Positions 1 through 20,044 of a DNA stretch of 64,000 nucleotides are shown in pieces. The stretch is from Moesziomyces globuligerus (Eukaryota; Basidiomycota; Ustilaginomycetes; Ustilaginales; Ustilaginaceae). The notes under the pieces are model-generated. The model worked only from the letters and a program-made list of their open reading frames with translations, did not search any database and was not told where the DNA came from. A program made the position numbers and the translations under genes. Each line of letters starts with the position of its first letter. The first letter of the stretch is position 1. Where the stretch lies: NCBI GenBank assembly GCA_030849465.1, contig JARVLF010000002.1, positions 1 through 64,000 of the forward strand, read 5' to 3'.

Positions 1-1426
1 CAAGGAATATGCTCAATGGGACCTAAAGAACCTATAAACATCATAAAAAGAGGTGGTCAAATCCCAACCCCAAGGGGCGCACCTTGTAACCCAATAAAAA
101 GAGGTGGTCAAAATCCCAACCCCAAGGGGCGCACCTTGTAACCCTAACCCTAACCCAAGTTTACTTAAGACCCCAAGACATGTTTGTACCCCACCCCCAA
201 GGGGCGCACCTTGTAACCCCCCCCCCTTACCTAACCCCTAACCCTAACCCTAGGAGCTGGCATACCTCCATGACCCCTTGACCTACCTTCCTGAAACTTT
301 GCATACAGCCTTCTTTCAGCATTATAAGCATCTTTCATTAAGGACACTGGCAAGATCCAAGCACTTTTTGAAGACCCCGTTTTGCCACCCGGCCAAATTT
401 CTTTGGCTCATATCTCCGCAACCTACTGATAAACTTGAGTGGGGTTCAGCAAGGAATATGCTCAATGGGACCTAAAGAACCTATAAACATCATAAAAAGA
501 GGTGGTCAAATCCCAACCCCAAGGGGCGCACCTTGTAACCCCATAAAAAGAGGTGGTCAAATCCCAACCCCAAGGGGCGCACCTTGTAACCCTAACCCTA
601 ACCCAAGTTTACTTAAGACCCCAAGACATGTTTGTACCCCACCCCCAAGGGGCGCACCTTGTAACCCCCCCCCCTACCTAACCCTAACCCTAACCCTTGG
701 AGCTGGCATACCTCCATGACCCCTTGACCTACCTTCCTGACACTTTGCATACAGCCTTCTTTCAGCATTATAAGCATCTTTCATTTAGACACTGGCAAGA
801 TCCAAGCACTTTTTGAAGACCCCGTTTTGCCACCCGGCCAAATTTCTTTGGCTCATATCTCCGCAACCTACTGATAAACTTGAGTGGGGTTCAGCAAGGA
901 ATATGCTCAATGGGACCTAAAGAACCTATAAACATCATAAAAAGAGGTGGTCAAATCCCAACCCCATGGGGCGCACCTTGTAACCCCATAAAAAGAGGTG
1001 GTCAAATCCCAACCCCAAGGGGCGCACCTTGTAACCCTAACCCTAACCCAAGTTTACTTAAGACCCCAAGACATGTTTGTACCCCACCCCCAAGGGGCGC
1101 ACCTTGTAACCCCCCCCCCCTACCTAACCCTAACCCTAACCCTAGGAGCTGGCATACCTCCATGACCCCTTGACCTACCTTCCTGAAACTTTGCATACAG
1201 CCTTCTTTCAGCATTATAAGCATCTTTCATTAAGACACTGGCAAGATCCAAGCACTTTTTGAAGACCCCGTTTTGCCACCCGGCCAAATTTCTTTGGCTC
1301 ATATCTCCGCAACCTACTGATAAACTTGAGTGGGGTTCAGCAAGGAATATGCTCAATGGGACCTAACGAACCTATAAACATCATAAAAAGAGGTGGTCAA
1401 ATCCCAACCCCAAGGGGCGCACCTTG
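1..1426. repeat. 446-bp tandem repeat, 3.2 copies
   Basis: Unit starts at 1, 450, 895 and 1341, each beginning CAAGGAATATGCTCAATGGG. Each unit holds one to three copies of a motif ending AAGGGGCGCACCTTGTAAC and two short CCCTAA tracts, then a 190-bp stretch without telomere-like sequence. A diverged piece of the same repeat is present at 15229-15345. ORFs through it are artefacts of the CCCTAA repeats (Pro-Asn or Leu-Thr runs). Confidence 0.9.
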
Positions 1427-1501
1427 TAACCCTAACCCTAACCCTAACCCTAACCCTAACCCTAACCCTAACCCTAACCCTAACCCTAACCCTAACCCTA
1501 A
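1427..1501. repeat. Interstitial telomere tract (CCCTAA)12
   Basis: About twelve uninterrupted CCCTAA repeats, the longest in the window. On its right it abuts GCAGATGG, a point inside the zinc-finger coding sequence, which it truncates. Confidence 0.95.
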
Positions 1502-2388
1502 GCAGATGGTGCTTCTGCCTCCTCCTCAGCGGTGTCAAGAGCAGGCAGCAGTACCACAATACCGTCTGCTGGCATGTCTTGAACATCTTGCAGCTCTAGT
1601 GTATGCTGGGGACATGCTTGTGTTGGTGCTGCAGGTCCTTCTTGGGGAAGGTACGGTAGCGTCTCTCCGTCTTCCTCTCCGCCTGACTCCTGCTCAGAGT
1701 CCGCGTTGACGTCAGGTCCATGGGGAGATAGGGTGGGCACTAGACCAGGAGACGCGTCAATTTCCAGGGAAATGTCCATCTCCAGTCCGTCTCCGTCTCC
1801 ATCTTGCCCAGACTCTGGCTCTGGATCCACGTCTGGCTCCCGCTCAGAATCAGAGACGTGTGTCTCCGCTGGAAAATCCAAGATTGGGCTCGGAGGCAGG
1901 CTGGGCACCAGACCAGGAGATGCGTCAATTTCCTGGAAATTCTCCTCCTCCACATCTGCCTCCGTGCCTGTTGCCTCTGGGGCCAGTGGTGAGCTGGGAG
2001 ACGGTGATGCTGTGTGCATGGGTGCTGGGCTTGCACTTGGAGGCAGCAGCAGGGCCAGAGCCTGCGCCAGCGCTGACACAGCTGCCACAATGACGGCTGC
2101 TGCCTGCTCTGCCGGTGCTGATTCTGACTGTGCTGGAGCAAAATCTTCTGCTGCTGCAGCTGCTGCTGCTGTGGGCTGGGACCGTACACCCTGGCACTTG
2201 CGGATGCCCTGGTGCTTGTGCAGTGCCGCAGCATTCACCACTACCTGGCCGCACTGGCATGCCACCAGCCCAACAGCAGCAGCAGCCTCCTGACTGACGT
2301 GTGCACCGCTGTGCGCCTTGCGCAAATGATTGGTGATGTTTGTTGCCGCATAGGAGAGACCGCAAACAGGGCAGGTTGTCCGTGACAT
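1502..2388 (-). pseudogene. Zinc-finger protein, copy 1, truncated after about 295 codons
   Basis: The ORF starts at the ATG at 2388 and is open to the telomere tract at 1501, where homology to the longer copies stops. It keeps the two N-terminal zinc fingers (C6-C9-H21-H26 and C44-C46-H59-C65) and the Ser/Pro/Asp/Glu-rich linker, but lacks the conserved middle domain and the zinc ribbon. A few amino-acid changes separate it from the 6468 copy, and it shares the Val-for-Ala and Met-for-Val changes near residues 100-130 with the copy at 16475. Truncated, so unlikely to work as a full protein; a short finger-only product is possible. Confidence 0.75.
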
Positions 2389-2455
2389 ATTGGCTGGCAG
2401 AGGGGAGTGGGTGATGTGATGGGCATTGACGGGTGCACATCTCTGCTACTTGCCC

Positions 2456-2662
2456 TTGACGGTCTCCCTTTTGTAGCTGACCATTTCACCAACTGTAGTG
2501 GACCGTCTCTCTGACTGTAGTGGACCGTCTCCATTTTTGAAGCAGACCGTCTTTATTTCTGAAGTGGACCGTCTTGATTTTTGAAGCAGACTGTCTTGAT
2601 TTTTGAAGCGGACTGTCTTCCTGTGAAATTCAACGCGTCAGATTTTTGAATTGGACCGTCTT
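2456..2662 (-). repeat. 22-bp phased GACYGTCT array upstream of zinc-finger copy 1
   Basis: GACCGTCT or GACTGTCT starts at 2501, 2523, 2545, 2567, 2589 and 2611, exactly 22 bp apart, with a further copy at 2653. Between them lie T-rich spacers ending TTTGAAGC. The array begins about 70 bp upstream of the ATG at 2388, where a promoter or operator would be. The remaining part to 2739 is non-coding and ends GGATCTGGAA next to the telomere tract. Confidence 0.85.
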
Positions 2663-2739
2663 CCATGAGGGCAGACCAGGGACCGCTGGATGCGGAGCGC
2701 GTCCAAAAGTTGGAAACCCACCGTCAAAAGGATCTGGAA

Positions 2740-2790
2740 CCCTAACCCTAACCCTAACCCTAACCCTAACCCTAACCCTAACCCTAACCC
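2740..2790. repeat. Interstitial telomere tract, 8.5 repeats
   Basis: (CCCTAA)8.5 between GGATCTGGAA (element start) and AAGGCGAGTTTAAAAACC (element end). The same two junctions recur at the other tracts. Confidence 0.95.
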
Positions 2791-3232
2791 AAGGCGAGTT
2801 TAAAAACCGCCTGGTAACCCCCTTTGCTAGGCGAGTTTAAAAACGCACCTGGACAGGCTCTTTGCTTGGCAAGTTTAAAACCCACCTGGACAGGCACTAA
2901 CCTACCTGGACATGGCCAGCAGACCTTAGTCCAATTGACCAAACAGCCATTGTGCTGCCAGGCAGGTTTAAAAACCCACCTGGACAGGCTCTTTGCTTGG
3001 CAAGTTTAAAAACCCGCCTGGACAGGCTCTTTGCTCGGCGAGTTTAAAAACCCACCTGGACAGGCGCTAACCTACCTGGACATGGCCAGCAGACCTTAGT
3101 CCAATTGACCAAACAGCCATTGTGCTGCCAGGCAGGTTTAAAACCCGCCTGGACAGGCTCTTTGCTAGGCGAGTTTAAAAACCGCCTGGTAACCCTCTTT
3201 GCTCGGCGAGTTTAAAAACGCACCTGGGTTTG
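2791..3232. repeat. Palindrome array with GTTTAAAAAC core
   Basis: Nine TTTAAA-centred imperfect palindromes (near 2798, 2834, 2873, 2969, 3004, 3041, 3137, 3173, 3210), for example GGCGAGTTTAAAAACCGCC, many spaced about 37 bp. A longer block containing ATGGCCAGCAGACC is duplicated inside the array. It follows the 3' end of the oxygenase gene and joins the telomere tract. Confidence 0.85.
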
Positions 3233-3287
3233 ACGATTGGACCACGGTCTGCTGGCCAACCTGGTTCACCAAACTGGTTTGCTGCTG

Positions 3288-3727
3288 TTACTGGCTTGCT
3301 AGTAGTGTGTCTAGTCTGTCACCAGCAATGATACTCAGTGGCTTCTCGTTGAAGATGCTCTGCCGGAAGAATCCACTGAATGCCCACCGTGCATCCCCAT
3401 TGCCACCAGCTTGGAGGGAGCGGTGGAAGTATGTGTGTGAGTTGAGCACAAGAATGGTGTGCGGCTCCACCCTGATGCTGACTCCAAACTGGGGAAGCGC
3501 AAGCAATGCCGGCTCTCCAAAGTTGAAGAGAAGCGACGGTATGCAGTCAAGATCATCACGGTGAACCCCACCGTCAGAGGGGAAGCCTGTGAAGAAGGCA
3601 ACTGTGGTCCACCACGGATGCAGAAGCTCCGTGCTCTTTCCAAAATAGCTCTCTAGCCACCTGCGGTGCGGCGCTCGAGCAGCAAGGCTACTTGCAAAGT
3701 CTGTGTTGATCTTGTCTTTGAGTGTCC
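3288..3727 (-). pseudogene. TET/JBP-like oxygenase, C-terminal fragment (unit alpha)
   Basis: Encodes the last 146 or so residues of the oxygenase that is intact at 7381-8361, including the His-Arg-Asp motif and distal His. At about 3727 it is joined directly to the 3' part of the zinc-finger gene; compared with the unit at 6820-11110, 940 bp are missing (7821-8760 there). The deletion removes the oxygenase start, its upstream 89-bp repeats and the zinc-finger stop codon, with CC at the joint. Confidence 0.8.
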
Positions 3728-6468
3728 AACGCCGCCAACCGGAATGACCTGGCAGGACCACGCTCTGCGCAGAAGCGTGAGGTGGGCAATGTGAGTGTTG
3801 AACGCACCTGCCACACCGTGCAGCAGCAAGACCTCCTCCTCCGTGCTGAGCTCTGCATCACGCACAGCCAGCTTGTTGATGCAGGCATGGACGGCAACCC
3901 TGCTCCGTGCACCAATGTGATGCTCCACTGCCAGAGTGTTGTCCCGCAGCCAGTCTGTTGCTGCCTCCTGGATCTCAATGGGACCTGGCCCACCGTGTTG
4001 ATCTTCCAATGCAAAGGAGAGGCACTCCAGCATGGACTCGCGCATGCTGGCAAACTCATGCGTGCGGACAAGACCACTGAGGTCCCTCCGCTGGCTGAGC
4101 TTGCAGACAGCTTGGTCTGCAGGTATGCTTGCAAACAGCAGCCGTGCTGGATCCACAATGAGCGTGCTGAGGTCAACGCCCAGCTGCCGGTTGAATGCCA
4201 GCGTGGCAATGTGCATGCGGAATTTCTGCGCGCCAAGGGTGGCTCGGCACTCAGTGCAGCGGATGCGGAACTGATGGGCACCTCCACAGAGGATGTACGT
4301 GCCCACGCGCCGGCAACCCTGGCACCGCAGGTGGATTTGAATGTGCCCAAACAAATTCTTGGTCCGCTTGGGCGTGCTGAACCGCTCCAGCTCTTGCGCC
4401 AGATCCACCGCAGCTTGGTTGGACACCCACCATGCGGTGGGACTGTCCAGCGCTGTGGGCCGTCTGCCCGGATGCCAACCCATTGCATTGTACAGGTCCA
4501 CCACGGCTTGCCGCTGCAGCCGTGTGGACTGCTTGCTGCTGTTGCCCCGGAAGAGCTGCTTCTGCTCTGCAACAGCAAGCAGCACGTCAGGTCCCTGAAC
4601 ATGTCTTCTTTCTTGATGGTGTGCGTCAGCAGCTGCTGCACCCCTGCTTGTGCGGTGAACAGGTAGCGTGGATCAAGGAAGCGGCTTGCCTTTGCCACTT
4701 GCTGCGCCTGCTGCATGGTGGCCGCTTGCACGGTGAGCTCCAGCCGGATGCCGCTGCCCACCTCTGGTGCTGTGCCAGAGACGCGCTCTTTCCACCTCTG
4801 CAGTGTGGCAATGCGGTCTTTCACCGTCTTCATGATCATCGGCTGACCTCCCTGCCCGGCACCTGCTGCTCCGGCTTTGAGCAGGTGCGTGAGTTTGGAA
4901 TATGCCTTGAAATGGGAAATTCCATCTGCACGGTGAGCCCATCGCAGCTCCACACTGCCAAAACCACGGCCAACGCGCAGAGCGCTGGGATACTGCTTGT
5001 AGCCGCCCTTCTTTGTTTTGGGTGCAAGCAGCGTGACGTGGCCTGTGTCCACCGTGCAGCCAATGTCAAACACATTGAACGCCTGCATTGGATGCTCTGC
5101 TAGCGCAGCTGGATCCAGGAAGCGGTGGATGGCCACCTTGAAGCCGTATGCACCCATGCGTACACTCTGGCAGCCTATGTCCTGCAGCGCCTCCACCAGG
5201 ATGCTGATCTCCACCCGCAGCTCTCCAAAGGTGAGCGTCTTGGCGTGTTCAGAGGGGACAAGGATGGCGTGTTGTGGCGGTCCCTGCAGCCGTGCTACAA
5301 GGGGGAGCTTGAACTGCGGTTCAAAGCGGAAGACCACCTTGAGCTCGGCAAAATAGACCCAATTGTCAAAGACGTGCATGTCCTTGAAATCAGGTGCATG
5401 GCTGATCAAGGACGCGTAGCAGCCAGCTGGAAAAATCTGCAGCATGCTGGCAGGAGAAATTGTCACCGCAAAGGAGTCCACATCCGTGTGGACAGGCACG
5501 TCCCAGTTGGAAATTGGTGCCATGGCTGGGATAGGCGGGAGTTCTGGAAGCTGCTCCCCTGTGTCCAGCACCAGCTGGGGTGCAGATGGTGCTTCTGCCT
5601 CCTCCTCAGCGGTGTCAAGAGCAGGCAGCAGTACCACAATACCGTCTGCTGGCATGTCTTGAACATCTTGCAGCTCTAGTGTATGCTGGGGACATGCTTG
5701 TGTTGGTGCTGCAGGTCCTTCTTGGGGAAGGTACGGTAGCGTCTCTCCGTCTTCCTCTCCGCCTGACTCCTGCTCAGAGTCCGCGTTGACGTCAGGTCCA
5801 TGGGGAGATAGGGTGGGCACTAGACCAGGAGACGCGTCAATTTCCAGGGAAATGTCCATCTCCAGTCCGTCTCCGTCTCCATCTTGCCCAGACTCTGGCT
5901 CTGGATCCACGTCTGGCTCCCGCTCAGAATCAGAGACGTGTGTCTCCGCTGGAAAATCCAAGATTGGGCTCGGAGGCAGGCTGGGCACCAGACCAGGAGA
6001 TGCGTCAATTTCCTGGAAATTCTCCTCCTCCACATCTGCCTCTGTGCCTGTTGCCTCTGGGGCCAGTGGTGAGCTGGGAGACGGTGATGCTGTGTGCACG
6101 GGTGCTGGGCTTGCACTTGGAGGCGGCAGCGGGGCCAGAGCCTGCGCCAGCGCTGACGCAGCTGCCACAATGGCGGCTGCTGCCTGCTCTGCCGGTGCTG
6201 ATTCTGACTGTGCTGGAGCAAAATCTTCTGCTGCTGCAGCGGCTGCTGCTGTGGGCTGGGACCGTACACCCTGGCACTTACGGATGCCCTGGTGCTTGCG
6301 CAGTGCCGCAGCATTCACCACTACCTGGCCGCACTGGCATGCAACCAGCCCAACAGCAGCAGCAGCCTCCTGACTGACGTGTGCACCGCTGTGCGCCTTG
6401 CGCAAATGATTGGTGATGTTTGTTGCCGCATAGGAGAGACCGCAAACAGGGCAGGTTGTCCGTGACAT
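3728..6468 (-). pseudogene. Zinc-finger protein, copy 2, frameshifted and lacking its end
   Basis: The ATG at 6468 opens a 926-codon ORF, but after about residue 625 (near 4590) the correct frame continues in a different register: this copy reads GGTCCCTGAAC where the copy at 8692-10759 has one base more. Domains before the shift: two zinc fingers (residues 6-65), an acidic low-complexity linker (about 90-310) and a conserved globular region (about 330-625) that I do not recognise. After the shift there is a zinc ribbon with two CxxC pairs (CQGC and CTEC). The 3' end is lost by the deletion at 3727. Identical lesions occur in the copy at 12100-14843. Confidence 0.75.
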
Positions 6469-6535
6469 ATTGGCTGGCAGAGGGGAGTGGGTGATGTGAT
6501 GGGCATTGACGGGTGCACATCTCTGCTACTTGCCC

Positions 6536-6742
6536 TTGACGGTCTCCCTTTTGTAGCTGACCATTTCACCAACTGTAGTGGACCGTCTCTCTGACTGTAG
6601 TGGACCGTCTCCATTTTTGAAGCAGACCGTCTTTATTTCTGAAGTGGACCGTCTTGATTTTTGAAGCAGACCGTCTTGATTTTTGAAGCGGACTGTCTTC
6701 CTGTGAAATTCAACGCGTCAGATTTTTGAATTGGACCGTCTT
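6536..6742 (-). repeat. 22-bp phased GACYGTCT array upstream of zinc-finger copy 2
   Basis: Same array as at 2456-2662, displaced by exactly 4080 bp, with repeats from 6581 to 6691 at 22-bp steps and one at 6733. It lies just upstream of the ATG at 6468. Confidence 0.85.
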
Positions 6743-6819
6743 CCATGAGGGCAGACCAGGGACCGCTGGATGCGGAGCGCGTCCAAAAGTTGGAAACCCA
6801 CCGTCAAAAGGATCTGGAA

Positions 6820-6882
6820 CCCTAACCCTAACCCTAACCCTAACCCTAACCCTAACCCTAACCCTAACCCTAACCCTAACCC
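6820..6882. repeat. Interstitial telomere tract, 10.5 repeats
   Basis: (CCCTAA)10.5 with the same flanking junctions as at 2740-2790 but two repeats longer. Confidence 0.95.
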
Positions 6883-7325
6883 AAGGCGAGTTTAAAAACC
6901 GCCTGGTAACCCCCTTTGCTAGGCGAGTTTAAAAACGCACCTGGACAGGCTCTTTGCTTGGCAAGTTTAAAACCCACCTGGACAGGCACTAACCTACCTG
7001 GACATGGCCAGCAGACCTTAGTCCAATTGACCAAACAGCCATTGTGCTGCCAGGCAGGTTTAAAAACCCACCTGGACAGGCTCTTTGCTTGGCAAGTTTA
7101 AAAACCCGCCTGGACAGGCTCTTTGCTCGGCGAGTTTAAAAACCCACCTGGACAGGCGCTAACCTACCTGGACATGGCCAGCAGACCTTAGTCCAATTGA
7201 CCAAACAGCCATTGTGCTGCCAGGCAGGTTTAAAAACCCGCCTGGACAGGCTCTTTGCTAGGCGAGTTTAAAAACCGCCTGGTAACCCTCTTTGCTCGGC
7301 GAGTTTAAAAACGCACCTGGGTTTG
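6883..7325. repeat. Palindrome array with GTTTAAAAAC core
   Basis: Nearly identical to 2791-3232. It lies between the telomere tract and the 3' end of the intact oxygenase gene. Confidence 0.85.
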
Positions 7326-7380
7326 ACGATTGGACCACGGTCTGCTGGCCAACCTGGTTCACCAAACTGGTTTGCTGCTG

Positions 7381-8361
7381 TTACTGGCTTGCTAGTAGTG
7401 TGTCTAGTCTGTCACCAGCAATGATACTCAGTGGCTTCTTGTTGAAGATGCTCTGCCGGAAGAATCCACTGAATGCCCACCGTGCATCCCCATTGCCACC
7501 AGCTTGGAGGGAGCGGTGGAAGTATGTGTGTGAGTTGAGCACAAGAATGGTGTGCGGCTCCACCCTGATGCTGACTCCAAACTGGGGAAGCGCAAGCAAT
7601 GCCGGCTCTCCAAAGTTGAAGAGAAGCGACGGTATGCAGTCAAGATCATCACGGTGAACCCCACCGTCAGAGGGGAAGCCTGTGAAGAAGGCAACTGTGG
7701 TCCACCATGTATGCAGAAGCTCCGTGCTCTTTCCAAAATAGCTCTCTAGCCACCTGCGGTGCGGCGCTCGAGCAGCAAGGCTACTTGCAAAGTCCGTGTT
7801 GATCTTGTCTTTGAGTGTCCTCAGCACCAGCTCGGCATGCTGCCTTGTCCACCACAGCAATGCAAAGGCTTCATCACGGTACTTGGGGTTGGTGGTCTCA
7901 GATGTGAAGCCCAGGCTGACTTCCCCCCGGCTGTGCCAGATCCCCAGATGATGCTCGACCAGGTTCCGCTTGTTTTTGTGTATGGCACTCCGTGTTGCCT
8001 TTCCTGTCTGCGTGGTCTTCTTGGCCAAATAAGTATCAAGGAGGATCCTGCCCGCCTTGGAGCTAGCTTTTGCCTTCCGATGCACTTCCCAGGATGTTGG
8101 AGCTAGCCGTTGTACTATCACCTTGTGGTTGCTGCCGTCCATGAGTGTGAGATTGGGAACAGCACATCCGGGCTGCGGCTCTCCGATGACTTGAAGCTGG
8201 GTACCCTCGGTCCAGTGCTCCTTCTGCCAGCCAGGTATGGGATCCACGGTGATTGCAAGTTCCTCCTGCTTGCTTTGCTGGTATAGTTGCCGTTGAGCTG
8301 CTTCACGGACCTTCCTTGCCGTCTTCTTGCGGGCAATTGCTTCAGGTGTTTTTGCTGGCAT
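7381..8361 (-). CDS. 2OG-Fe(II) oxygenase, TET/JBP-like
   Basis: Intact 326-codon ORF from the ATG at 8361; codons upstream belong to the 89-bp repeat. The C-terminal half has the features of a double-stranded beta-helix dioxygenase: His236-Arg-Asp238 as the iron HxD, distal His near 282 in SHTYFHRS after a strand like the usual PGxxxxxxS element, and Arg294 or Arg301 placed to bind 2-oxoglutarate. The order HRD, then a hydrophobic strand, then S...H, then R...F..FR matches, from memory, the TET/JBP-type proteins expanded with transposons in basidiomycetes. The first 35 residues are basic (RKKTARKVRE). Expected chemistry would be oxidation of 5-methylcytosine or thymine, but this is inference; a different nucleic-acid or protein oxygenase is possible. 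It is the only full copy; 3' fragments lie at 3288 and 11660. Confidence 0.65.
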   Translation of the reverse strand: MPAKTPEAIARKKTARKVREAAQRQLYQQSKQEELAITVDPIPGWQKEHWTEGTQLQVIGEPQPGCAVPNLTLMDGSNHKVIVQRLAPTSWEVHRKAKASSKAGRILLDTYLAKKTTQTGKATRSAIHKNKRNLVEHHLGIWHSRGEVSLGFTSETTNPKYRDEAFALLWWTRQHAELVLRTLKDKINTDFASSLAARAPHRRWLESYFGKSTELLHTWWTTVAFFTGFPSDGGVHRDDLDCIPSLLFNFGEPALLALPQFGVSIRVEPHTILVLNSHTYFHRSLQAGGNGDARWAFSGFFRQSIFNKKPLSIIAGDRLDTLLASQ

Positions 8362-8392
8362 GTTGACGGATGGAGATGAGACGGGGGTCCCG

Positions 8393-8622
8393 TCTCCAAA
8401 CTCAACTTTCCTGAGCCAAAGTGAAAATTTTGACGCGGTACCCCCTCCACCTGGAAAGAGCGTGCCCATCTGGGGGTACCGCCTCCAAACTCAACTTTCC
8501 CAAGCCAAAGTGAAAATTTTGACGCGGTACCCCCTCCACCTGGAAAGAGCGTGCCCATTGGGGGTACCGCCTCAAAATTCCAACTTCCCCTGCCAAAATG
8601 AAAATTTGGACACGGTACCCCC
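8393..8622. repeat. 89-bp tandem repeat between the two element genes
   Basis: Copies start at 8393, 8482 and 8571 (the last diverged), each with the KpnI-type palindrome GGTACC and GGAAAGAGCGTGCCCAT. Located between the stop of the zinc-finger gene (8692) and the start of the oxygenase (8361), so it may hold the oxygenase promoter or the zinc-finger terminator. Confidence 0.85.
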
Positions 8623-8691
8623 AGCTCTCATCCAGCTCACCCGGACCACTGTTCAGCTTGCACAAACACACGTGAACAAAATGATATTCTC

Positions 8692-10759
8692 CTACTGCCT
8701 AGAGTGTGTCAGCACCTCGTATCCATCACCCATAAGCTTGACAAGGCCCACATATGGCCCAACGCTGCCAACCGGAATGACCTGGCAGGACCACGCTCTG
8801 CGCAGAAGCATGAGGTGGGCAATGTGAGTGTTGAACGCACCTGCCACACCGTGCAGCAGCAAGACCTCCTCCTCCGTGCTGAGCTCTGCATCACGCACAG
8901 CCAGCTTGTTGATGCAGGCATGGACGGCAACCCTGCTCCGTGCACCAATGTGATGCTCCACTGCCAGAGTGTTGTCCCGCAGCCAGTCTGTTGCTGCCTC
9001 CTGGATCTCAATGGGACCTGGCCCACCGTGTTGATCTTCCAACGCAAAGGAGAGGCACTCCAGCATGGACTCGCGCATGCTGGCAAACTCATGCGTGCGG
9101 ACAAGACTGCTGAGGTCCCTCCGCTGGCTGAGCTTGCGGACAGCTTGGTCTGCAGGTATGCTTGCAAACAGCAGCCGTGCTGGATCCACAATGAGCGTGC
9201 TGAGGTCAACGCCCAGCTGCCGGTTGAATGCCAGCGTGGCAATGTGCATGCGGAATTTCTGCGCGCCAAGGGTGGCTCGGCACTCAGTGCAGCGGATGCG
9301 GAACTGATGGGCACCTCCACAGAGGATGTACGTGCCCACGCGCCGGCAACCCTGGCACCGCAGGTGGATTTGAATGTGCCCAAACAAATTCTTGGTCCGC
9401 TTGGGCGTGCTGAACCGCTCCAGCTCTTGCGCCAGATCCACCGCAGCTTGGTTGGACACCCACCATGCGGTGGGACTGTCCAGCGCTGTGGGCCGTCTGC
9501 CCGGATGCCAACCCATTGCATTGTACAGGTCCACCACGGCTTGCCGCTGCAGCCGTGTGGACTGCTTGCTGCTGTTGCCCCGGAAGAGCTGCTTCTGCTC
9601 TGCAACAGCAAGCAGCACGTCAAGATCCCTGAACATGTCTTCTTTCTTGATGGTGTGTGTCAGCAGCTGCTGCACTCCTGCTTGTGCAGTGAACAGGTAG
9701 CGTGGATCAAGGAAGCGGCTTGCCTTTGCCACTTGCTGCGCCTGCTGCATGGTGGCCGCTTGCACGGTGAGCTCCAGCCGGATGCCGCTGCCCACCTCTG
9801 GTGCTGTGCCAGAGACGCGCTCTTTCCACCTCTGCAGTGTGGCAATGCGGTCTTTCCAGCACCAGCTGGGGTGCAGACGGTGCTTCTGCCTCCTCCTCAG
9901 CAGTGTCAAGAGCAGGCAGCAGTACCACAATACCGTCTGCTGGCATGTCTTGAACATCTTGCAGCTCTAGCGTATGCTGGGGACGTGCTTGTGTTGGTGC
10001 TGCAGGTCCTTCTTGGGGAAGGTACGGTAGCGTCTCTCCGTCTTCCTCTCCGCCTGACTCCTGCTCAGAGTCCGCGTTGACGTCAGGTCCATGGGGAGAT
10101 AGGGTGGGCACTAGACCAGGAGACGCGTCAATTTCCAGGGAAATGTCCATCTCCAGTCCGTCTCCGTCTCCATCTTGCCCAGACTCTGGCTCTGGATCCA
10201 CGTCTGGCTCCCGCTCAGAATCAGAGACGTGTGTCTCCGCTGGAAAATCCAAGATTGGGCTCGGAGGCAGGCTGGGCACCAGACCAGGAGATGCGTCAAT
10301 TTCCTGGAAATTCTCCTCCTCCACATCTGCCTCTGTGCCTGTTGCCTCTGGGGCCAGTGGTGAGCTGGGAGACGGTGATGCTGTGTGCACGGGTGCTGGG
10401 CTTGCACTTGGAGGCGGCAGCGGGGCCAGAGCCTGCGCCAGCGCTGACGCAGCTGCCACAATGGCGGCTGCTGCCTGCTCTGCCGGTGCTGATTCTGACT
10501 GTGCTGGAGCAAAATCTTCTGCTGCTGCAGCGGCTGCTGCTGTGGGCTGGGACCGTACACCCTGGCACTTACGGATGCCCTGGTGCTTGCGCAGTGCCGC
10601 AGCATTCACCACTACCTGGCCGCACTGGCATGCAACCAGCCCAACAGCAGCAGCAGCCTCCTGACTGACGTGTGCACCGCTGTGCGCCTTGCGCAAATGA
10701 TTGGTGATGTTTGTTGCCGCATAGGAGAGACCGCAAACAGGGCAGGTTGTCCGTGACAT
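8692..10759 (-). pseudogene. Zinc-finger protein, copy 3, with a 743-bp internal deletion
   Basis: Starts at the ATG at 10759 and ends at the TAG at 8692. Near 9856 the linker (PQLVL) is fused to a point in the middle domain; relative to the 6468 copy, 743 bp (4823-5565 there) are missing, which is not a multiple of three. Downstream, the frame from 9840 to 8692 is fully open, through the site where other copies are frameshifted, the zinc ribbon and a true C-terminus ending THSRQ. This copy therefore defines the real 3' half of the gene and shows the protein was one ORF of about 950 codons. Confidence 0.75.
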
Positions 10760-10826
10760 ATTGGCTGGCAGAGGGGAGTGGGTGATGTGATGGGCATTGA
10801 CGGGTGCACATCTCTGCTACTTGCCC

Positions 10827-11033
10827 TTGACGGTCTCCCTTTTGTAGCTGACCATTTCACCAACTGTAGTGGACCGTCTCTCTGACTGTAGTGGACCGTC
10901 TCCATTTTTGAAGCAGACCGTCTTTATTTCTGAAGTGGACCGTCTTGATTTTTGAAGCAGACCGTCTTGATTTTTGAAGCGGACTGTCTTCCTGTGAAAT
11001 TCAACGCGTCAGATTTTTGAATTGGACCGTCTT
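10827..11033 (-). repeat. 22-bp phased GACYGTCT array upstream of zinc-finger copy 3
   Basis: Same array at the same distance from the ATG at 10759, with repeats from 10872 at 22-bp steps. Confidence 0.85.
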
Positions 11034-11110
11034 CCATGAGGGCAGACCAGGGACCGCTGGATGCGGAGCGCGTCCAAAAGTTGGAAACCCACCGTCAAAA
11101 GGATCTGGAA

Positions 11111-11161
11111 CCCTAACCCTAACCCTAACCCTAACCCTAACCCTAACCCTAACCCTAACCC
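11111..11161. repeat. Interstitial telomere tract, 8.5 repeats
   Basis: (CCCTAA)8.5, the same length as the tract at 2740-2790, which heads the near-identical unit alpha. Confidence 0.95.
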
Positions 11162-11604
11162 AAGGCGAGTTTAAAAACCGCCTGGTAACCCCCTTTGCTA
11201 GGCGAGTTTAAAAACGCACCTGGACAGGCTCTTTGCTTGGCAAGTTTAAAACCCACCTGGACAGGCACTAACCTACCTGGACATGGCCAGCAGACCTTAG
11301 TCCAATTGACCAAACAGCCATTGTGCTGCCAGGCAGGTTTAAAAACCCACCTGGACAGGCTCTTTGCTTGGCAAGTTTAAAAACCCGCCTGGACAGGCTC
11401 TTTGCTCGGCGAGTTTAAAAACCCACCTGGACAGGCGCTAACCTACCTGGACATGGCCAGCAGACCTTAGTCCAATTGACCAAACAGCCATTGTGCTGCC
11501 AGGCAGGTTTAAAAACCCGCCTGGACAGGCTCTTTGCTAGGCAAGTTTAAAAACCGCCTGGTAACCCTCTTTGCTCGGCGAGTTTAAAAACGCACCTGGG
11601 TTTG
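11162..11604. repeat. Palindrome array with GTTTAAAAAC core
   Basis: Third copy of the array described at 2791-3232, with few base changes. Confidence 0.85.
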
Positions 11605-11659
11605 ACGATTGGACCACGGTCTGCTGGCCAACCTGGTTCACCAAACTGGTTTGCTGCTG

Positions 11660-12099
11660 TTACTGGCTTGCTAGTAGTGTGTCTAGTCTGTCACCAGCAA
11701 TGATACTCAGTGGCTTCTCGTTGAAGATGCTCTGCCGGAAGAATCCACTGAATGCCCACCGTGCATCCCCATTGCCACCAGCTTGGAGGGAGCGGTGGAA
11801 GTATGTGTGTGAGTTGAGCACAAGAATGGTGTGCGGCTCCACCCTGATGCTGACTCCAAACTGGGGAAGCGCAAGCAATGCCGGCTCTCCAAAGTTGAAG
11901 AGAAGCGACGGTATGCAGTCAAGATCATCACGGTGAACCCCACCGTCAGAGGGGAAGCCCGTGAAGAAGGCAACTGTGGACCACCACGGATGCAGAAGCT
12001 CCGTGCTCTTTCCAAAATAGCTCTCTAGCCACCTGCGGTGCGGCGCTCGAGCAGCAAGGCTACTTGCAAAGTCTGTGTTGATCTTGTCTTTGAGTGTCC
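11660..12099 (-). pseudogene. TET/JBP-like oxygenase, C-terminal fragment (unit alpha')
   Basis: Same fragment and same deletion joint as 3288-3727 (TGTCC joined to AACGCC at 12099), with only a few substitutions. The HRD motif is retained, but the first 180 residues are missing. Confidence 0.8.
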
Positions 12100-14843
12100 A
12101 ACGCCGCCAACCGGAATGACCTGGCAGGACCACGCTCTGCGCAGAAGCGTGAGGTGGGCAATGTGAGTGTTGAACGCACCTGCCACACCGTGCAGCAGCA
12201 AGACCTCCTCCTCCGTGCTGAGCTCTGCATCACGCACAGCCAGCTTGTTGATGCAGGCATGGACGGCAACCCTGCTCCGTGCACCAATGTGATGCTCCAC
12301 TGCCAGAGTGTTGTCCCGCAGCCAGTCTGTTGCTGCCTCCTGGATCTCAATGGGACCTGGCCCACCGTGTTGATCTTCCAATGCAAAGGAGAGGCACTCC
12401 AGCATGGACTCGCGCATGCTGGCAAACTCATGCGTGCGGACAAGACCACTGAGGTCCCTCCGCTGGCTGAGCTTGCAGACAGCTTGGTCTGCAGGTATGC
12501 TTGCAAACAGCAGCCGTGCTGGATCCACAATGAGCGTGCTGAGGTCAACGCCCAGCTGCCGGTTGAATGCCAGCGTGGCAATGTGCATGCGGAATTTCTG
12601 CGCGCCAAGGGTGGCTCGGCACTCAGTGCAGCGGATGCGGAACTGATGGGCACCTCCACAGAGGATGTACGTGCCCACGCGCCGGCAACCCTGGCACCGC
12701 AGGTGGATTTGAATGTGCCCAAACAAATTCTTGGTCCGCTTGGGCGTGCTGAACCGCTCCAGCTCTTGCGCCAGATCCACCGCAGCTTGGTTGGACACCC
12801 ACCATGCGGTGGGACTGTCCAGCGCTGTGGGCCGTCTGCCCGGATGCCAACCCATTGCATTGTACAGGTCCACCACGGCTTGCCGCTGCAGCCGTGTGGA
12901 CTGCTTGCTGCTGTTGCCCCGGAAGAGCTGCTTCTGCTCTGCAACAGCAAGCAGCACGTCAGGTCCCTGAACATGTCTTCTTTCTTGATGGTGTGCGTCA
13001 GCAGCTGCTGCACCCCTGCTTGTGCGGTGAACAGGTAGCGTGGATCAAGGAAGCGGCTTGCCTTTGCCACTTGCTGCGCCTGCTGCATGGTGGCCGCTTG
13101 CACGGTGAGCTCCAGCCGGATGCCGCTGCCCACCTCTGGTGCTGTGCCAGAGACGCGCTCTTTCCACCTCTGCAGTGTGGCAATGCGGTCTTTCACCGTC
13201 TTCATGATCATCGGCTGACCTCCCTGCCCGGCACCTGCTGCTCCGGCTTTGAGCAGGTGCGTGAGTTTGGAATATGCCTTGAAATGGGAAATTCCATCTG
13301 CACGGTGAGCCCATCGCAGCTCCACACTGCCAAAACCACGGCCAACGCGCAGAGCGCTGGGATACTGCTTGTAGCCGCCCTTCTTTGTTTTGGGTGCAAG
13401 CAGCGTGACGTGGCCTGTGTCCACCGTGCAGCCAATGTCAAACACATTGAACGCCTGCATTGGATGCTCTGCTAGCGCAGCTGGATCCAGGAAGCGGTGG
13501 ATGGCCACCTTGAAGCCGTATGCACCCATGCGTACACTCTGGCAGCCTATGTCCTGCAGCGCCTCCACCAGGATGCTGATCTCCACCCGCAGCTCTCCAA
13601 AGGTGAGCGTCTTGGCGTGTTCAGAGGGGACAAGGATGGCGTGTTGTGGCGGTCCCTGCAGCCGTGCTACAAGGGGGAGCTTGAACTGCGGTTCAAAGCG
13701 GAAGACCACCTTGAGCTCGGCAAAATAGACCCAATTGTCAAAGACGTGCATGTCCTTGAAATCAGGTGCATGGCTGATCAAGGACGCGTAGCAGCCAGCT
13801 GGAAAAATCTGCAGCATGCTGGCAGGAGAAATTGTCACCGCAAAGGAGTCCACATCCGTGTGGACAGGCACGTCCCAGTTGGAAATTGGTGCCATGGCTG
13901 GGATAGGCGGGAGTTCTGGAAGCTGCTCCCCTGTGTCCAGCACCAGCTGGGGTGCAGACAGTGCTTCTGCCTCCTCCTCAGCGGTGTCAAGAGCAGGCAG
14001 CAGTACCACAATACCGTCTGCTGGCATGTCTTGAACATCTTGCAGCTCTAGTGTATGCTGGGGACATGCTTGTGTTGGTGCCGCAGGTCCTTCTTGGGGA
14101 AGGTACGGTAGCGTCTCTCTGTCTTCTTCTCCATCCAACTCCTGGTCAGAGTCCGTGTTGGTGTCAGGTCCATGTGGAGATAGGCTGGGCACAAGACCAG
14201 GAGACGCGTCAATTTCCAGGGAAATGTCCATCTCCAGTCCGTCTCCATCTCCATCTTGCCCAGACTCTGGCTCTGGATCCACATCTGGCTCCCGCTCAGA
14301 ATCAGAGATGTGTGTCTCCGCTGGAAAATCCAAGATTGGGCTTGGAGGCAGGCTGGGCACCAGACCAGAAGACGCGTCAATTTCCTGGAAATTCTCCTCC
14401 TCCACATCTGCCTCCGTGCCTGTTGCCTCCGGGGCCAGTGGTGAGCTGCAGGACGGTGATGCTGTGTGCACGGGTGCTGGGCTTGCACTTGGAGGCGGCA
14501 GCGGGGCCAGAGCCTGCGCCAGCGCTGATGCAGCTGCCACAATGGCTGCTGCTGCAGTCTGCTCTGCCGGCGCTGATTCTGACTGTGCTGGAGCAAAATT
14601 TTCTGCTGCTGCAGCTGCTGCTGCTGTGGGCTGGGACTGTACACCCTGGCACTTACGGATGCCCTGGTGCTTGCGCAGTGCCGCAGCATTCACCACTACC
14701 TGGCCGCACTGGCATGCAACCAGCCCAACAGCAGCAGCAGCCTCCTGACTGACGTGTGCACCGCTGTGCGCCTTGCGCAAATGATTGGTGATGTTTGTTG
14801 CCGCATAGGAGAGACCGCAAACAGGGCAGGTTGTCCATGACAT
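12100..14843 (-). pseudogene. Zinc-finger protein, copy 4, frameshifted and lacking its end
   Basis: ATG at 14843 (MSWTTCPVCG). It carries the same one-base frameshift (near 12962) and the same 3' deletion as copy 2, so the two derive from one damaged parent. Its first 300 codons are more diverged from copies 2 and 3 than the rest (for example QELDGEED in place of QESGGEED, and an extra Thr-Ala near residue 95) and resemble copy 5, which suggests a recombination break between copy types within the linker. Confidence 0.75.
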
Positions 14844-14910
14844 ATTGGCTGGCGGAGGGGAGTGGGTGATGTGATGGGCATTGACGGGTGCACATCTCTG
14901 CTACTTGCCC

Positions 14911-15142
14911 TTGACGGTCTCCCTTTTGTAGCTGACCGTCTCTCTGACTGTAGCTGACCGTCTCTCTGACTGTAGCAGACTGTCTCTCTGACTGTAGTGG
15001 ACCGTCTCCCTTTTTGAAGCAGACTGTCTTTATTTCTGAAGTGGACCGTCTTGATTTTTGAAGCAGACTGTCTTGATTTTTGAAGCGGACTGTCTTCCTG
15101 TGAAATTCAACGCGTCAGATCTTTGAATTGGACCGTCTTCCA
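14911..15142 (-). repeat. GACYGTCT array upstream of zinc-finger copy 4 (variant)
   Basis: Same repeat family, but the ATG-proximal part has three extra units of TCTCTGACTGTAG type, so the array has expanded relative to copies 1-3. It is followed by GGATCTGGAA and only two CCCTAA repeats (15217-15228). Confidence 0.8.
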
Positions 15143-15216
15143 TGAGGGCAGACCAGGGAGCGCTGGATGCCAAGCGCGTCCAAAAGTTGGAAACCCACCG
15201 TCAAAAGGATCTGGAA

Positions 15217-15345
15217 CCCTAACCCTAGCTGATCAACTTGAGTGGGGTTAAGCAAGCTTACTGCTCTGAAGGACCCATAGAACAAGTTTACTTAAGACCC
15301 CAAGTAACCCTCAGTACCCCAACCCCAAGGGGCGCACCTTGTAAC
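15217..15345. repeat. Degenerate telomere tract plus a piece of the 446-bp repeat
   Basis: Two CCCTAA units (15217-15228), then TGATCAACTTGAGTGGGG and AAGTTTACTTAAGACCCCAA, both found in the 1-1426 repeat, ending AAGGGGCGCACCTTGTAAC. It joins the zinc-finger gene at about 15346, mirroring the layout at 1-1502. Confidence 0.8.
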
Positions 15346-16475
15346 TTGGCAAAATAGACCCAATTGTCAAAGACGTGCATGTCCTTGAAATCAGGTGCAT
15401 GGCTGATCAAGGACGCGTAGCAGCCAGCTGGAAAAATCTGAAGCATGCTGGCAGGAGAAATTGTCACCGCAAAGGAGTCCACATCTGTGTGGACAGGCAC
15501 GTCCCAGTTGGAAATTGGTGCCATGGCTGGGATAGGCGGGAGTTCTGGAAGCTGCTCCCCTGTGTCCAGCACCAGCTGGGGTGCAGATGGTGCTTCTGCC
15601 TCCTCCTCAGCGGTGTCAAGAGCAGGCAGCAGTACCACAATACCGTCTGCTGGCATGTCTTGAACATCTTGCAGCTCTAGTGTATGCTGGGGACATGCTT
15701 GTGTTGGTGCTGCAGGTCCTTCTTGGGGAAGGTACGGTAGCGTCTCTCCGTCTTCTTCTCCATCCAACTCCTGGTCAGAGTCCGTGTCGGTGTCAGGTCC
15801 ATGTGGAGATAGGCTGGGCACGAGACCAGGAGACGCGTCAATTTCCAGGGAAATGTCCATCTCCAGTCCGTCTCTGTCTCCATCTCCATCTTTCCCAGAC
15901 TCTGGCTCTGGATCCACGTCTGGCTCCTGCTCAGAATCAGAGCCATGTGTCTCCGCTGGAAAATCCAAGATTGGGCTCGGAGGCAGGCTGGGCACCAGAC
16001 CAGAAGACGCGTCAATTTCCTGGAAATTCTCCTCCTCCACATCTGCCTCCGTGCCTGTTGCCTCTGGGGCCAGTGGTGAGCTGGGAGACGGTGATGCTGT
16101 GTGCATGGGTGCTGGGCTTGCACTTGGAGGCAGCAGCAGGGCCAGAGCCTGCGCCAGCGCTGACACAGCTGCCACAATGACGGCTGCTGCCTGCTCTGCC
16201 GGTGCTGATTCTGACTGTGCTGGAGCAAAATTTTCTGCTGCTGCAGCTGCTGCTGCTGTGGGCTGGGACTGTACACCCTGGCACTTACGGATGCCCTGGT
16301 GCTTGCGCAGTGCCGCAGCATTCACCACTACCTGGCCGCACTGGCATGCAACCAGCCCAACAGCAGCAGCAGCCTCCTGACTGACGTGTGCACCGCTGTG
16401 CGCCTTGCGCAAATGATTGGTGATGTTTGTTGCCGCATAGGAGAGACCGCAAACAGGGCAGGTTGTCCATGACAT
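15346..16475 (-). pseudogene. Zinc-finger protein, copy 5, truncated after about 376 codons
   Basis: The centromere-most copy. The ATG at 16475 opens through both zinc fingers, the acidic linker and the first 60 or so residues of the middle domain, then runs into the 446-bp repeat fragment, which supplies a chance tail and stop at 15288. Sequence variants are shared partly with copy 1 (VIVAAVSALA) and partly with copy 4 (start MSWTT). Confidence 0.75.
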
Positions 16476-16539
16476 ATTGGCTGGCGGAGGGGAGTGGGTG
16501 ATGTGATGGGCATTGACGGGTGCACATCTCTGCTACTTG

Positions 16540-16873
16540 CCCTTGACGGTCTCCCTTTTGTAGCTGACCATTTCACCAACTGTAGTGGACCGTCTCTCTG
16601 ACTGCGGTGGACCGTCTCCATTTTTGAAGCGGACTGTCTCTCTGACTGTAGTGGACCGTCTCCATTTTTGAAGCAGACCGTCTTTATTTCTGAAGTGGAC
16701 CGTCTTGATTTTTGAAGCAGACCGTCTTGATTCTTGAAGCGGACTGTCTTCCTGTGAAATTCAATGCGTCAGATTTTTGAATTGGACCGTCTTCCATGAG
16801 GGCAGACCAGGGACCGCTGGATGCCGAGCGCGTCCAAAAGTTGGAAACCCACCGTCAAAAGGATCTGGAACCC
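16540..16873 (-). repeat. GACYGTCT array and inner end of the element array
   Basis: Fifth copy of the 22-bp array, with one extra TCTCTGACTG unit, upstream of the ATG at 16475. It ends at GGATCTGGAA followed by CCCCATAGCC; all repeat similarity stops here, marking the boundary between subtelomere and single-copy chromosome. Confidence 0.8.
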
Positions 16874-19045: not shown

Positions 19046-20044
19046 ATGAAGATCTACGCTTCTCTCATCGCCATCAGCGTGGCTCTGGCAGCCACACTGG
19101 CTGGTGCTTCTGCCGACTTCGAACGTCGCCAGAGCTGTGCTTTGCCTACTTCGTACAAGTGGACGTCAAGCGCTCCGCTCGCTCAGCCCAAGAACAGCTG
19201 GGTTGCTCTCAAGGACTTTACGCATGTCCCGTACAACGGAAAGCATCTCGTCTATGCTACCACGCACGACCAGGGCACAAACTACGGCTCGATGGGCTTC
19301 TCGCCCTTCTCGACGTGGTCCGACATGGCTTCAGCCACGCAGACGCCGATGCAGCATTCCTCTGTGGCTCCGACCATCTTTCAATTTGGACTTACGAAGC
19401 AATGGATCCTTGCTACTCAGTGGAGCGGGGCGGCCTTCACCTACATGACCAGTTCCGACCCCACCAACGCTAACGGCTGGTCCGCACCGAAGCCCCTGTT
19501 CACCGGTAGCCTCGGTGACAGTGGCACCGGTCCCATCGACCAGACGCTGATTGGCGATAGCAAGAACATGTATCTCTTCTTCGCCGGCGACAATGGCAAG
19601 ATCTACCGCGCAAGCATGCCCATCGCAAAGTTCCCGAGCAGCTTCGGTACCGCCGCGGAGGTCGTCCTGTCCGATACCAAGGCCAACCTCTTCGAGGCAG
19701 TGCAGGTGTACACCTTGGCTGGTCAGAACAAGTACCTGATGATTGTCGAGGCCATGGGCACGCACGGACGCTACTTCCGCTCCTTCACCGCCAACAGTCT
19801 CGATGGAGCGTGGACCCTCAACGCCGGATCCGAGTCCGCTCCTTTCGCCGGCAAAGCCAACAGCGGCGCTTCGTGGACCGACGACATCAGTCACGGTGAT
19901 CTGATCCGCTCCAACCCGGACCACACCATGACCGTCGACCCCTGTCGCCTCCAGCTTCTGTTCCAGGGCCGAGACAAGAGCGTCCCCAATGAGAACTACG
20001 ACCTCGCCCCTTACCGTCCTGGCCTTCTGACTCTGCAGAGGTAG
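19046..20044 (+). CDS. Secreted alpha-L-arabinofuranosidase, GH62
   Basis: 332 residues. Removes arabinose side chains from arabinoxylan outside the cell, a step in plant cell-wall degradation or colonisation. The start at 19046 gives a signal peptide ([20 protein letters not shown]), likely cut after ASA, then a basic FERRQ site that a Kex2-type protease could use. The GH62 fold covers nearly all the rest. Conserved acidic residues fall where expected: Asp57 in LKDFT (base), Asp165 in PIDQT and Glu217 in LFEAV (acid); [16 protein letters not shown] and the C-terminal QGRD region also fit the family. There is no carbohydrate-binding module. The open frame upstream of the ATG has no methionine and holds the TATA box, so it is not coding. 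Confidence 0.93.

Follow-up and report, generated by a model that had tools for sequence, protein, structure and literature searches.

Array structure at the contig end

What kind of element forms a head-to-tail array joined by telomere repeats at a chromosome end, and what does a putative DNA-modifying enzyme do there? The question is raised by the left end of a 577-kb contig of Moesziomyces globuligerus (GCA_030849465.1, JARVLF010000002.1), of which the first 64,000 nt (the window) were analyzed. Five element units lie head to tail between positions 1 and 16873, with TTAGGG sequence at their joints (Table 1), and TTAGGGTTAGGG was matched 40 times in the window versus 0 times in 100 shuffles. 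The whole unit is ~5.1 kb long and carries two genes, ORF1 and ORF2, both read toward the telomere. All five window copies of ORF1 are broken by a frameshift, an internal deletion, or truncation, and one of the three copies of ORF2 is whole.

The original prediction described units with constant junctions, each closed by a (TTAGGG)n tract. All five units do run in the same direction, and all five end on the centromere side in GGATCTGG followed by AACCC (2737, 6817, 11108, 15214, and 16868). On the telomere side, however, only three open with AAGGCGAGTTTAAAAACC (2791, 6883, and 11162); the units from 1502 and from about 15335 are truncated there and lack this start. Four (CCCTAA)n tracts are perfect, but at the two centromere-side joints the telomere sequence is just 13 bp and 5 bp long, so a long tract does not close every unit. 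Bases 1 to 1426 belong not to the element but to a separate satellite with a period of about 446 bp. The contig starts within this satellite and therefore does not include the physical telomere at this end.

TABLE 1. Features of the window, from the contig start toward the centromere
Feature	Positions	Strand
Subtelomeric satellite, 3.2 copies of about 446 bp, containing short stretches that resemble telomere repeats; present at further ends as well, e.g., C12R	1..1426	
(TTAGGG)n tract, 12.5 repeats	1427..1501	-
Unit, telomere side truncated (reference 3810-5073); ORF1 start only	1502..2737	-
(TTAGGG)n tract, 8.8 repeats	2738..2790	-
Unit, internal deletion from reference 1013 to 1953; C-terminal part of ORF2 (3291-3725), frameshifted ORF1 (3725-6468)	2791..6817	-
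(TTAGGG)n tract, 10.8 repeats	6818..6882	-
Unit, ORF2 whole, ORF1 split by deletion from reference 3050 to 3792	6883..11108	-
Tandem repeats, 37/38 bp and 170 bp, at the unit's telomere-side end	6884..7320	
ORF2, predicted 326-aa TET/JBP-like dioxygenase	7381..8361	-
ORF1, C-terminal part, deleted copy	8692..9856	-
ORF1, N-terminal part including C2H2-like finger	9855..10759	-
Tandem repeats, 22/44 bp, upstream of ORF1, at the unit's centromere-side end	10843..10991	
(TTAGGG)n tract, 8.8 repeats	11109..11161	-
Unit, internal deletion as in 2791-6817; ORF1 frameshifted (12097-14843)	11162..15214	-
Telomere stub of 13 bp, then a partly satellite-like fragment	15215..15344	
Centromere-most unit, telomere side truncated (start about 15335-15345); ORF1 residues 1-379	15345..16868	-
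Telomere stub of 5 bp (AACCC) at the joint of element and nonelement sequence; next 1.2 kb has CpG o/e of 1.05	16869..16873	-

Distribution and joints across the genome

Throughout the genome, the matches found lie near contig ends, and nearly all are oriented alike; their centromere-side end is constant and joins telomere repeats in one phase, and truncation on the telomere side varies. They occur at 29 of the 48 contig ends, leaving 19 ends without a match. In line with the original prediction, matches were found only near contig ends: all 126 matches (from three DNA searches with overlapping queries and thus not separate copies) lie ≤17.3 kb from a contig end, with 39 of 54, 19 of 19, and 40 of 63 candidates scored, so that interior copies may have escaped. 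The ORFs are directed toward the telomere in 124 of these matches.

In the end regions examined, 36 joints were found on 31 distinct flanks, all with the same centromere-side element end and with the stub in a single phase. The stub reaches at least AACCC in 26 of the 31 flanks, and its median length is 10 bp. Comparison of 18 centromere-most flanks (651 to 1200 bp) gave five BLAST matches in four pairs, none of them in register at the joint. Truncation falls on the telomere side of the copies, several of which (C5L, C12L, C13R, C19L, and C23L) are capped directly by the terminal tract. The copies at C2R and C19R have a common break at reference position 1166 and different sequence beyond it, as recombination would give. 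When 20 truncation points were compared with the reference by eye, leaving out the out-of-register points at C17R (1321) and C19R (171), most breaks had few or no bases in common with the telomere repeat; at the C13R break, the reference itself reads AACCCT. The breakpoints do not distinguish telomerase healing from end joining.

The phase of the element joint is that of 5'-AACCCT, the commonest C-strand 5' end in Ustilago maydis, reported for about 50 to 60% of ends (PMC6167521). This agreement is suggestive. It is not proof, since the joints of other subtelomeric sequences vary in phase, with AACCCT again the commonest (by distinct contexts, AACCCT 11, CCTAAC 7, CCCTAA 5, TAACCC 4, and ACCCTA 2). 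Many of those contexts are interrupted telomere tracts, and the satellite joint is one base off the phase of the element.

The two encoded proteins

ORF2 encodes a protein of 326 aa, and intact copies are also present at other ends. The enclosing frame of 362 aa starts upstream, at 8469; the Met-Pro at frame residue 37 is invariant in the seven aligned members and is the start in five of the six relatives. In keeping with the TET/JBP-like oxygenase of the original prediction, the predicted fold is a TET/JBP-type double-stranded beta-helix. Residues H272, D274, H318, and R330 are invariant in all seven members, and the alignment with the Naegleria Tet-like protein matches the HxD and the distal H; together these residues make up the Fe(II)-binding HxD...H motif, with R330 as the probable 2OG-binding arginine. 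The PF12851 profile matched one of the seven members, weakly (E = 0.068), and the best PDB profile matches were to Naegleria Tet-like (E = 0.0093 and 0.012). One relative matched DDE_Tnp_1 at E = 0.06 with an unconvincing score. A role in countering methylation, as a putative dioxygenase acting on DNA, is likely but unproven.

ORF1, at 936 to 938 aa, is likewise intact at other ends. The zinc finger predicted for it is supported in part: the N terminus is C2H2-like, and the protein is an orphan. Profile searches gave no convincing match to helicase, reverse transcriptase (RT), or transposase domains in ORF1 or ORF2, in agreement with the earlier reading of the window. PF12013 (OrsD) was not listed for the ORF1 N terminus at E values up to 10, and OrsD was searched for in the same genome without a positive control. 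Scans of viral contigs contained no relatives of ORF1 or ORF2. Among intact copies of both genes, nonsynonymous change is reduced, with pN/pS values, from uninterrupted copies only, of 0.32 for ORF1 (13 copies, 78 pairs) and 0.26 for ORF2 (7 copies, 21 pairs).

CpG depletion and mutation of the copies

CpG depletion, loss of TCG, and divergence by C>T at CpG are findings beyond the original prediction. Along the unit, CpG o/e is 0.43 to 0.65, versus 0.96 to 1.23 (about 1.1) in 216 overlapping background windows. TCG is almost absent from ORF1, and the RIP-like TCG index is 5.2 for the unit and 13.4 for the ORF1 part, compared with 0.84 for the background. The main difference between copies is C>T at CpG. 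In ORF1, C>T affects 67 of 282 CpG, compared with 30 of the 1381 other C; in ORF2, the counts are 9 of 84 versus 0 of 458. This bias is not unique to the element, since C>T also falls at CpG in an interior retrotransposon control (5/46 CpG versus 0/174 other C). Unlike the element, the interior controls L084 to L087 (four of the 37 RT matches in the genome, two of them identical) have a CpG o/e of 0.77 to 0.90, and TCG makes up 68 to 72% of their NCG.

Among the centromere-most flanks, CpG o/e is at least 0.90 in 11 of 18 and lower in seven; the low-CpG flanks include C22R (0.53), which consists of element sequence, and C17L (0.01). Three DNA methyltransferase matches, at two loci, were found in the genome. 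Methylation and gene content need not agree, given that 5mC has been reported by HPLC in U. maydis (2.26% methylation) although no DNA methyltransferase gene is listed for that species (PMC7862722).

Proposed mechanism and alternatives

We favor, at a probability of roughly 60%, a Y'-like element of chromosome ends. It would spread through end capture and recombination, and its copies would be methylated and subject to RIP-like mutation, with its own dioxygenase counteracting this. The Y'-like element of the original prediction is partly supported, by its end restriction, nearly uniform orientation, and tandem copies with telomere sequence; the mode of spread is inferred.

A broken or eroded chromosome end would acquire a terminal piece from another end, made up of telomere stub, element, and telomere, by break-induced replication or end joining. 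The outer copy could later be truncated by erosion and healed by telomerase, after which a further copy could be added. It counts against this reading that homologous recombination usually uses stretches longer than the median stub of 10 bp, so that many joints would have to be products of end joining or healed breaks. The joints may preserve a history of how chromosomes broke, were healed, and captured new ends. Repeated copies would be methylated and then undergo RIP-like C>T mutation, and the dioxygenase may oxidize 5mC on element copies, leaving them expressible and less damaged. ORF1 may be a partner that binds DNA, perhaps at the tandem repeats of the unit ends.

The constant inner end and outer truncation are also the footprint of end-primed reverse transcription. 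An RT encoded elsewhere, by a telomeric non-LTR element or as telomerase, could mobilize the element, with the inner end as the start of copying and the outer truncation as incomplete copying; the RT-less MoTeR2 is thought to borrow the RT of MoTeR1. The single phase on the telomere G-strand is consistent with this route, as are its agreement with the U. maydis C-strand end and the finding that 14 of the 37 RT matches in the genome are no more than 17.3 kb from an end. However, none of the 37 RVT_1 matches overlaps any unit or element match, and one founding joint could have passed on the phase. Furthermore, both ORFs run toward the telomere, so that the copied RNA would be antisense to the element genes. 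MoTeRs have the reverse arrangement, with their 5' ends directed to the chromosome end (PMC7367193). We consider this route unlikely.

Somewhat further down in plausibility is a subtelomeric gene family of the host that is spread passively, as telomere-linked helicases are, and whose genes are kept for a benefit to the host in telomere chromatin or subtelomeric expression. The presence of copies at 29 ends and the reduced nonsynonymous change would fit such a family, as would the RecQ matches, of which two of 28 exceed the family cutoff, both interior and none near ends; Sporisorium scitamineum, in contrast, has three predicted telomere-linked RecQ genes (PMC4466345). Yet many broken copies persist, 19 ends have no match, and the element is scarred like a target of genome defense. 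A weak RecQ match near the end of C14 is below the cutoff, and its frame was read as another DEAD-box-type helicase rather than a telomere-linked RecQ.

Just as doubtful is a new class of selfish element that is autonomous and targets ends. Here, ORF1 would place the element on native ends, with no known transposase or RT involved, and its methylation would be removed by the TET-like enzyme. The joint phase, being that of the commonest U. maydis C-strand end, would fit such placement, and the orphan ORF1 could be an unrecognized mobility enzyme. Misassembly of terminal repeats into tandem units is highly improbable: the contig does start inside a satellite and one internal deletion is common to two window units, but the units differ in tract length and deletions, and consistent structures recur at many ends on different flanks.

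If the autonomous, end-targeting reading is correct, telomeres would be the site of an arms race between DNA methylation with RIP-like mutation and an element-borne demethylase, and smuts that have kept DNA methyltransferases would be the main place to expect such elements.

Comparison with known systems

The Y' elements of Saccharomyces are subtelomeric and occur in tandem copies that telomere tracts often separate; they measure about 5.2 or 6.7 kb and have a tandem 36-mer array and conserved ORFs (PMC13177704). The present element resembles them in its restriction to ends, its single orientation (among the candidates scored), and its tandem copies with telomere sequence, here often cut to a stub. 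It differs in that its ORFs specify no detected helicase but instead a TET-like dioxygenase and an orphan protein and in that its stubs have a median of 10 bp, versus 20 to about 500 bp, with two longer, reported for Y' (PMC13177704). The UTASa and UTASb repeats are likewise found at smut telomeres; the former carry a RecQ-like helicase and the latter an OrsD domain and/or core sequence (PMC10532341). Neither domain was found in the units, with UTASb compared by domain content.

MoTeR and FoTeR arrays (PMC7367193, PMC12857005) also have TTAGGG joints, a constant centromere-side end, and truncated copies that are telomere healed. In contrast, no RT was detected in the element, and its ORFs point toward the telomere, not in the opposite direction.

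TET+ DNA transposons of fungi, of types PU, AG, and PE, have been described by Kojima in 2025 (PMC12730594). They are transposase-encoding DNA transposons and Helitrons of Pucciniomycetes, Agaricomycetes, and Pezizomycetes, and the TET/JBP dioxygenase that they carry has been proposed to act against methylation or RIP-like mutation. The element is like them in pairing mobility with a predicted TET/JBP dioxygenase and unlike them in occurring in Ustilaginales and at chromosome ends. Neither a transposase nor terminal inverted repeats were detected in it (the best 12-mer match of one end to the reverse complement of the other was 8/12, as in most of 500 shuffles). Among the matches listed from open-licence PMC literature, none described a subtelomeric element of smuts with a TET-like gene. 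To the three lineages with TET/JBP genes in DNA transposons or Helitrons (PMC12730594), the locus adds a chromosome-end element in which no transposase, helicase, or RT was detected. Since the element bears the mutation pattern expected of methylated repeats, the proposed escape from methylation by mobile TET genes is directly testable here, in a compact system where the chromosome ends are known and intact copies can be compared with broken ones as internal controls.

Arrangement of the element at chromosome ends

The window, 64 kb from the start of contig C2 (577,327 bp, in a genome of 18.54 Mb and 24 contigs), holds an array of five successive units in the same direction, and four long (CCCTAA)n tracts lie within positions 1 to 11161. 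The original observation was of unit junctions that are constant on both sides; at the centromere side all five units end in GGATCTGG followed by telomere sequence, and at the telomere side three of the five start with AAGGCGAGTTTAAAAACC. Beyond the array, toward the centromere, lies a glycosyl hydrolase family 62 gene (19046-20044, + strand).

Positions of the array units and of DNA methyltransferase matches
Feature	Location	Remark
Unit 1	window 1502-2737	
Unit 2	window 2791-6817	
Unit 3	window 6883-11108	
Unit 4	window 11162-15214	
Unit 5	window ~15345-16868	
DNA methyltransferase match	C9:51181-52580	
DNA methyltransferase match	C19:63493-63981	inside a 2443-aa open frame

Three DNA searches gave at least 126 matches to the element (units and parts, overlapping between searches), and none of the 126 is more than 17.3 kb from a contig end. 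With 39 of 54, 19 of 19, and 40 of 63 candidates scored, these searches give a minimum copy number, and the absence of interior copies is probable rather than certain. Matches occur at 29 of the 48 ends, with none at the other 19 in these searches, and 124 of the 126 share one orientation relative to their end, the remaining two being 37-bp repeat stretches at the left end of C18. Tandem expansion is seen at the left end of C16 (three copies, 1,995-bp spacing) and at the right end of C15 (seven element end pieces, ~1,556-bp spacing).

Across the end regions examined, there are 36 joints at which the centromere-side end meets telomere sequence, with 31 distinct flanks. The telomere sequence starts in a single phase (AACCCTAACCC...), reaching at least AACCC at 26 of the 31 distinct joints and keeping one to four bases at the other five. 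These stubs are 1 to 27 bp long (median, 10 bp), apart from two distinct joints near 58 bp, one of which represents four joints (53 to 65 bp) that precede whole telomere-side ends. The flanks include sequence unrelated to the element, some of it transposon-like, and the interior of other element copies; BLAST among the 18 centromere-most flanks gave five matches, which fall in four flank pairs and in no case line up with the joint. Telomere-side truncation falls at many different positions of the reference unit (the 5,073-bp copy at the right end of C12), and the terminal tract directly caps several truncated copies. The right ends of C2 and C19 share a break at reference position 1166, and the sequence beyond it differs.

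Mode of spread

Our best reading, at a probability of about 0.6, is that of a Y'-like terminal element whose copies are carried along with chromosome ends. Interstitial TTAGGG tracts of more than three repeats are described as breakage prone in Magnaporthe, the broken ends being repaired via healing, BIR, or end joining (PMC7367193). The same events, if they took place here, would account for a stub phase that stays constant, for stubs that are short and flanks that vary, and for truncation on the outer side and the formation of arrays. The main alternative, copying of the element in trans by a reverse transcriptase, is unlikely. Of the 37 RVT_1 matches, 14 are no farther than 17.3 kb from a contig end (e.g., the right ends of C14, C7, and C9 and the left end of C23), a subtelomeric non-LTR element may exist, and the joint phase is that described as the commonest C-strand terminus in U. 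maydis (PMC6167521); however, the element's genes are oriented opposite to those of MoTeR-type elements. Passive spread of a host gene family is slightly less probable still.

Genes carried by the element

ORF1, an orphan protein gene, and ORF2, encoding a predicted TET/JBP-like dioxygenase, both read toward the telomere. The DNA examined at contig ends contains 13 uninterrupted ORF1 frames (936 to 938 aa), none of them at the window's end, and seven uninterrupted ORF2 frames (326 aa), one of them within the window. Of the five ORF1 copies in the window, two are frameshifted and cut by a deletion, one is split by a deletion, and two are truncated; of the three ORF2 copies there, one is whole and two are truncated. 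The pN/pS values of 0.32 (ORF1) and 0.26 (ORF2) are descriptive rather than a test with independent points, since only uninterrupted copies were used and the pairs are paralogues with shared history.

Twelve relatives of ORF1 were found, the closest named ones being proteins of Ustilago trichophora (the top named relative, 71% identical across the part that was searched), Ustilago sp. UG-2017a, and Kalmanozyma brasiliensis; U. trichophora and K. brasiliensis belong to the Ustilaginales, and on that basis the genome is described as smut-like. Alignment with 11 of the 12 (P0018 omitted; some members truncated) reveals a common conserved C-terminal part of ~650 residues, preceded by a variable linker; most of the 11 also have the C2H2-like N terminus. 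The ORF1 finger scores 22.3 bits against Pfam, under the 25.2-bit cutoff, and the rest of the protein has no explanatory match in the libraries searched. Cysteines at about 718, 721, 740, and 743 are invariant across a four-sequence alignment. Tandem repeats differ between the unit ends, with 22/44-bp repeats on the centromere side (window 10843-10991) and 37/38-bp repeats on the telomere side (6884-7320); both are candidate binding sites.

CpG depletion and probable methylation

CpG observed/expected ratios are 0.43 to 0.65 in all 500-bp steps along the unit and 0.96 to 1.23 in the background (216 overlapping 2.8-kb windows of 18 to 64 kb). Along the window, the ratio climbs at about 17 kb, from 0.6 to 1.1; the centromere-most flanks have ratios of at least 0.90 in 11 of 18 cases and lower ratios in seven. 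Among the 13 intact ORF1 copies, C>T changes in some copy affect 67 of 282 cytosines within CpG versus 30 of 1381 in other contexts (odds ratio, 14), and the corresponding ORF2 counts are 9/84 versus 0/458. TCG makes up 5/268 of NCG in the ORF1 part, 14/114 in the ORF2 part, and 2486/9182 in the background. A RIP-like TCG index akin to the one published for anther smuts (PMC10502011), computed here without that study's overlap correction, reaches 5.2 over the whole unit, 13.4 over its ORF1 part, and 3.3 over its ORF2 part, versus 0.84 over 18 to 64 kb. A ~446-bp satellite (window 1-1426; 1-6850 from the right end of C12) has CpG ratios of 0.26 to 0.28, and its index at the C12 end, 35.8, exceeds that of the element. 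An interior retrotransposon control (four 477-bp stretches) keeps TCG at 68 to 72% of NCG and also has C>T changes at CpG (5/46 versus 0/174 other cytosines). Two loci in the genome account for three DNA_methylase matches. Together, the CpG depletion, C>T changes at CpG, TCG loss, and DNA_methylase matches indicate that this genome probably methylates repeats and that the element is a marked target, although it retains intact genes. A TET-like enzyme would make sense as a countermeasure. U. maydis is described in a review as lacking such a DNA methyltransferase gene, with low methylation by HPLC cited there (PMC7862722). Separately, CpG is almost wholly erased (ratio, 0.01; two NCG over both strands) in the 1.2-kb flank of a unit at the left end of C17, after position 11041 of that end.

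Comparison with known systems

Y' elements and smut telomere-linked sequences are described as encoding helicases (PMC13177704, PMC10532341, PMC4466345), whereas none of the RecQ profile matches in this genome that exceed the family cutoff lies near an end, in agreement with the earlier observation that no helicase was visible. The prediction of a Y'-like element spreading at ends is partly supported, by chromosome-end location, an orientation shared by nearly all matches, and telomere-joined arrays. In the Kojima survey, which covers TET genes carried by mobile elements of fungi, the groups named are Pucciniomycetes, Agaricomycetes, and Pezizomycetes, the carriers are only DNA transposons and Helitrons, and the main text contains neither "ustilag" nor "smut" (PMC12730594). 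The element seems to be constructed like Y', yet by gene content it is not a Y' element.
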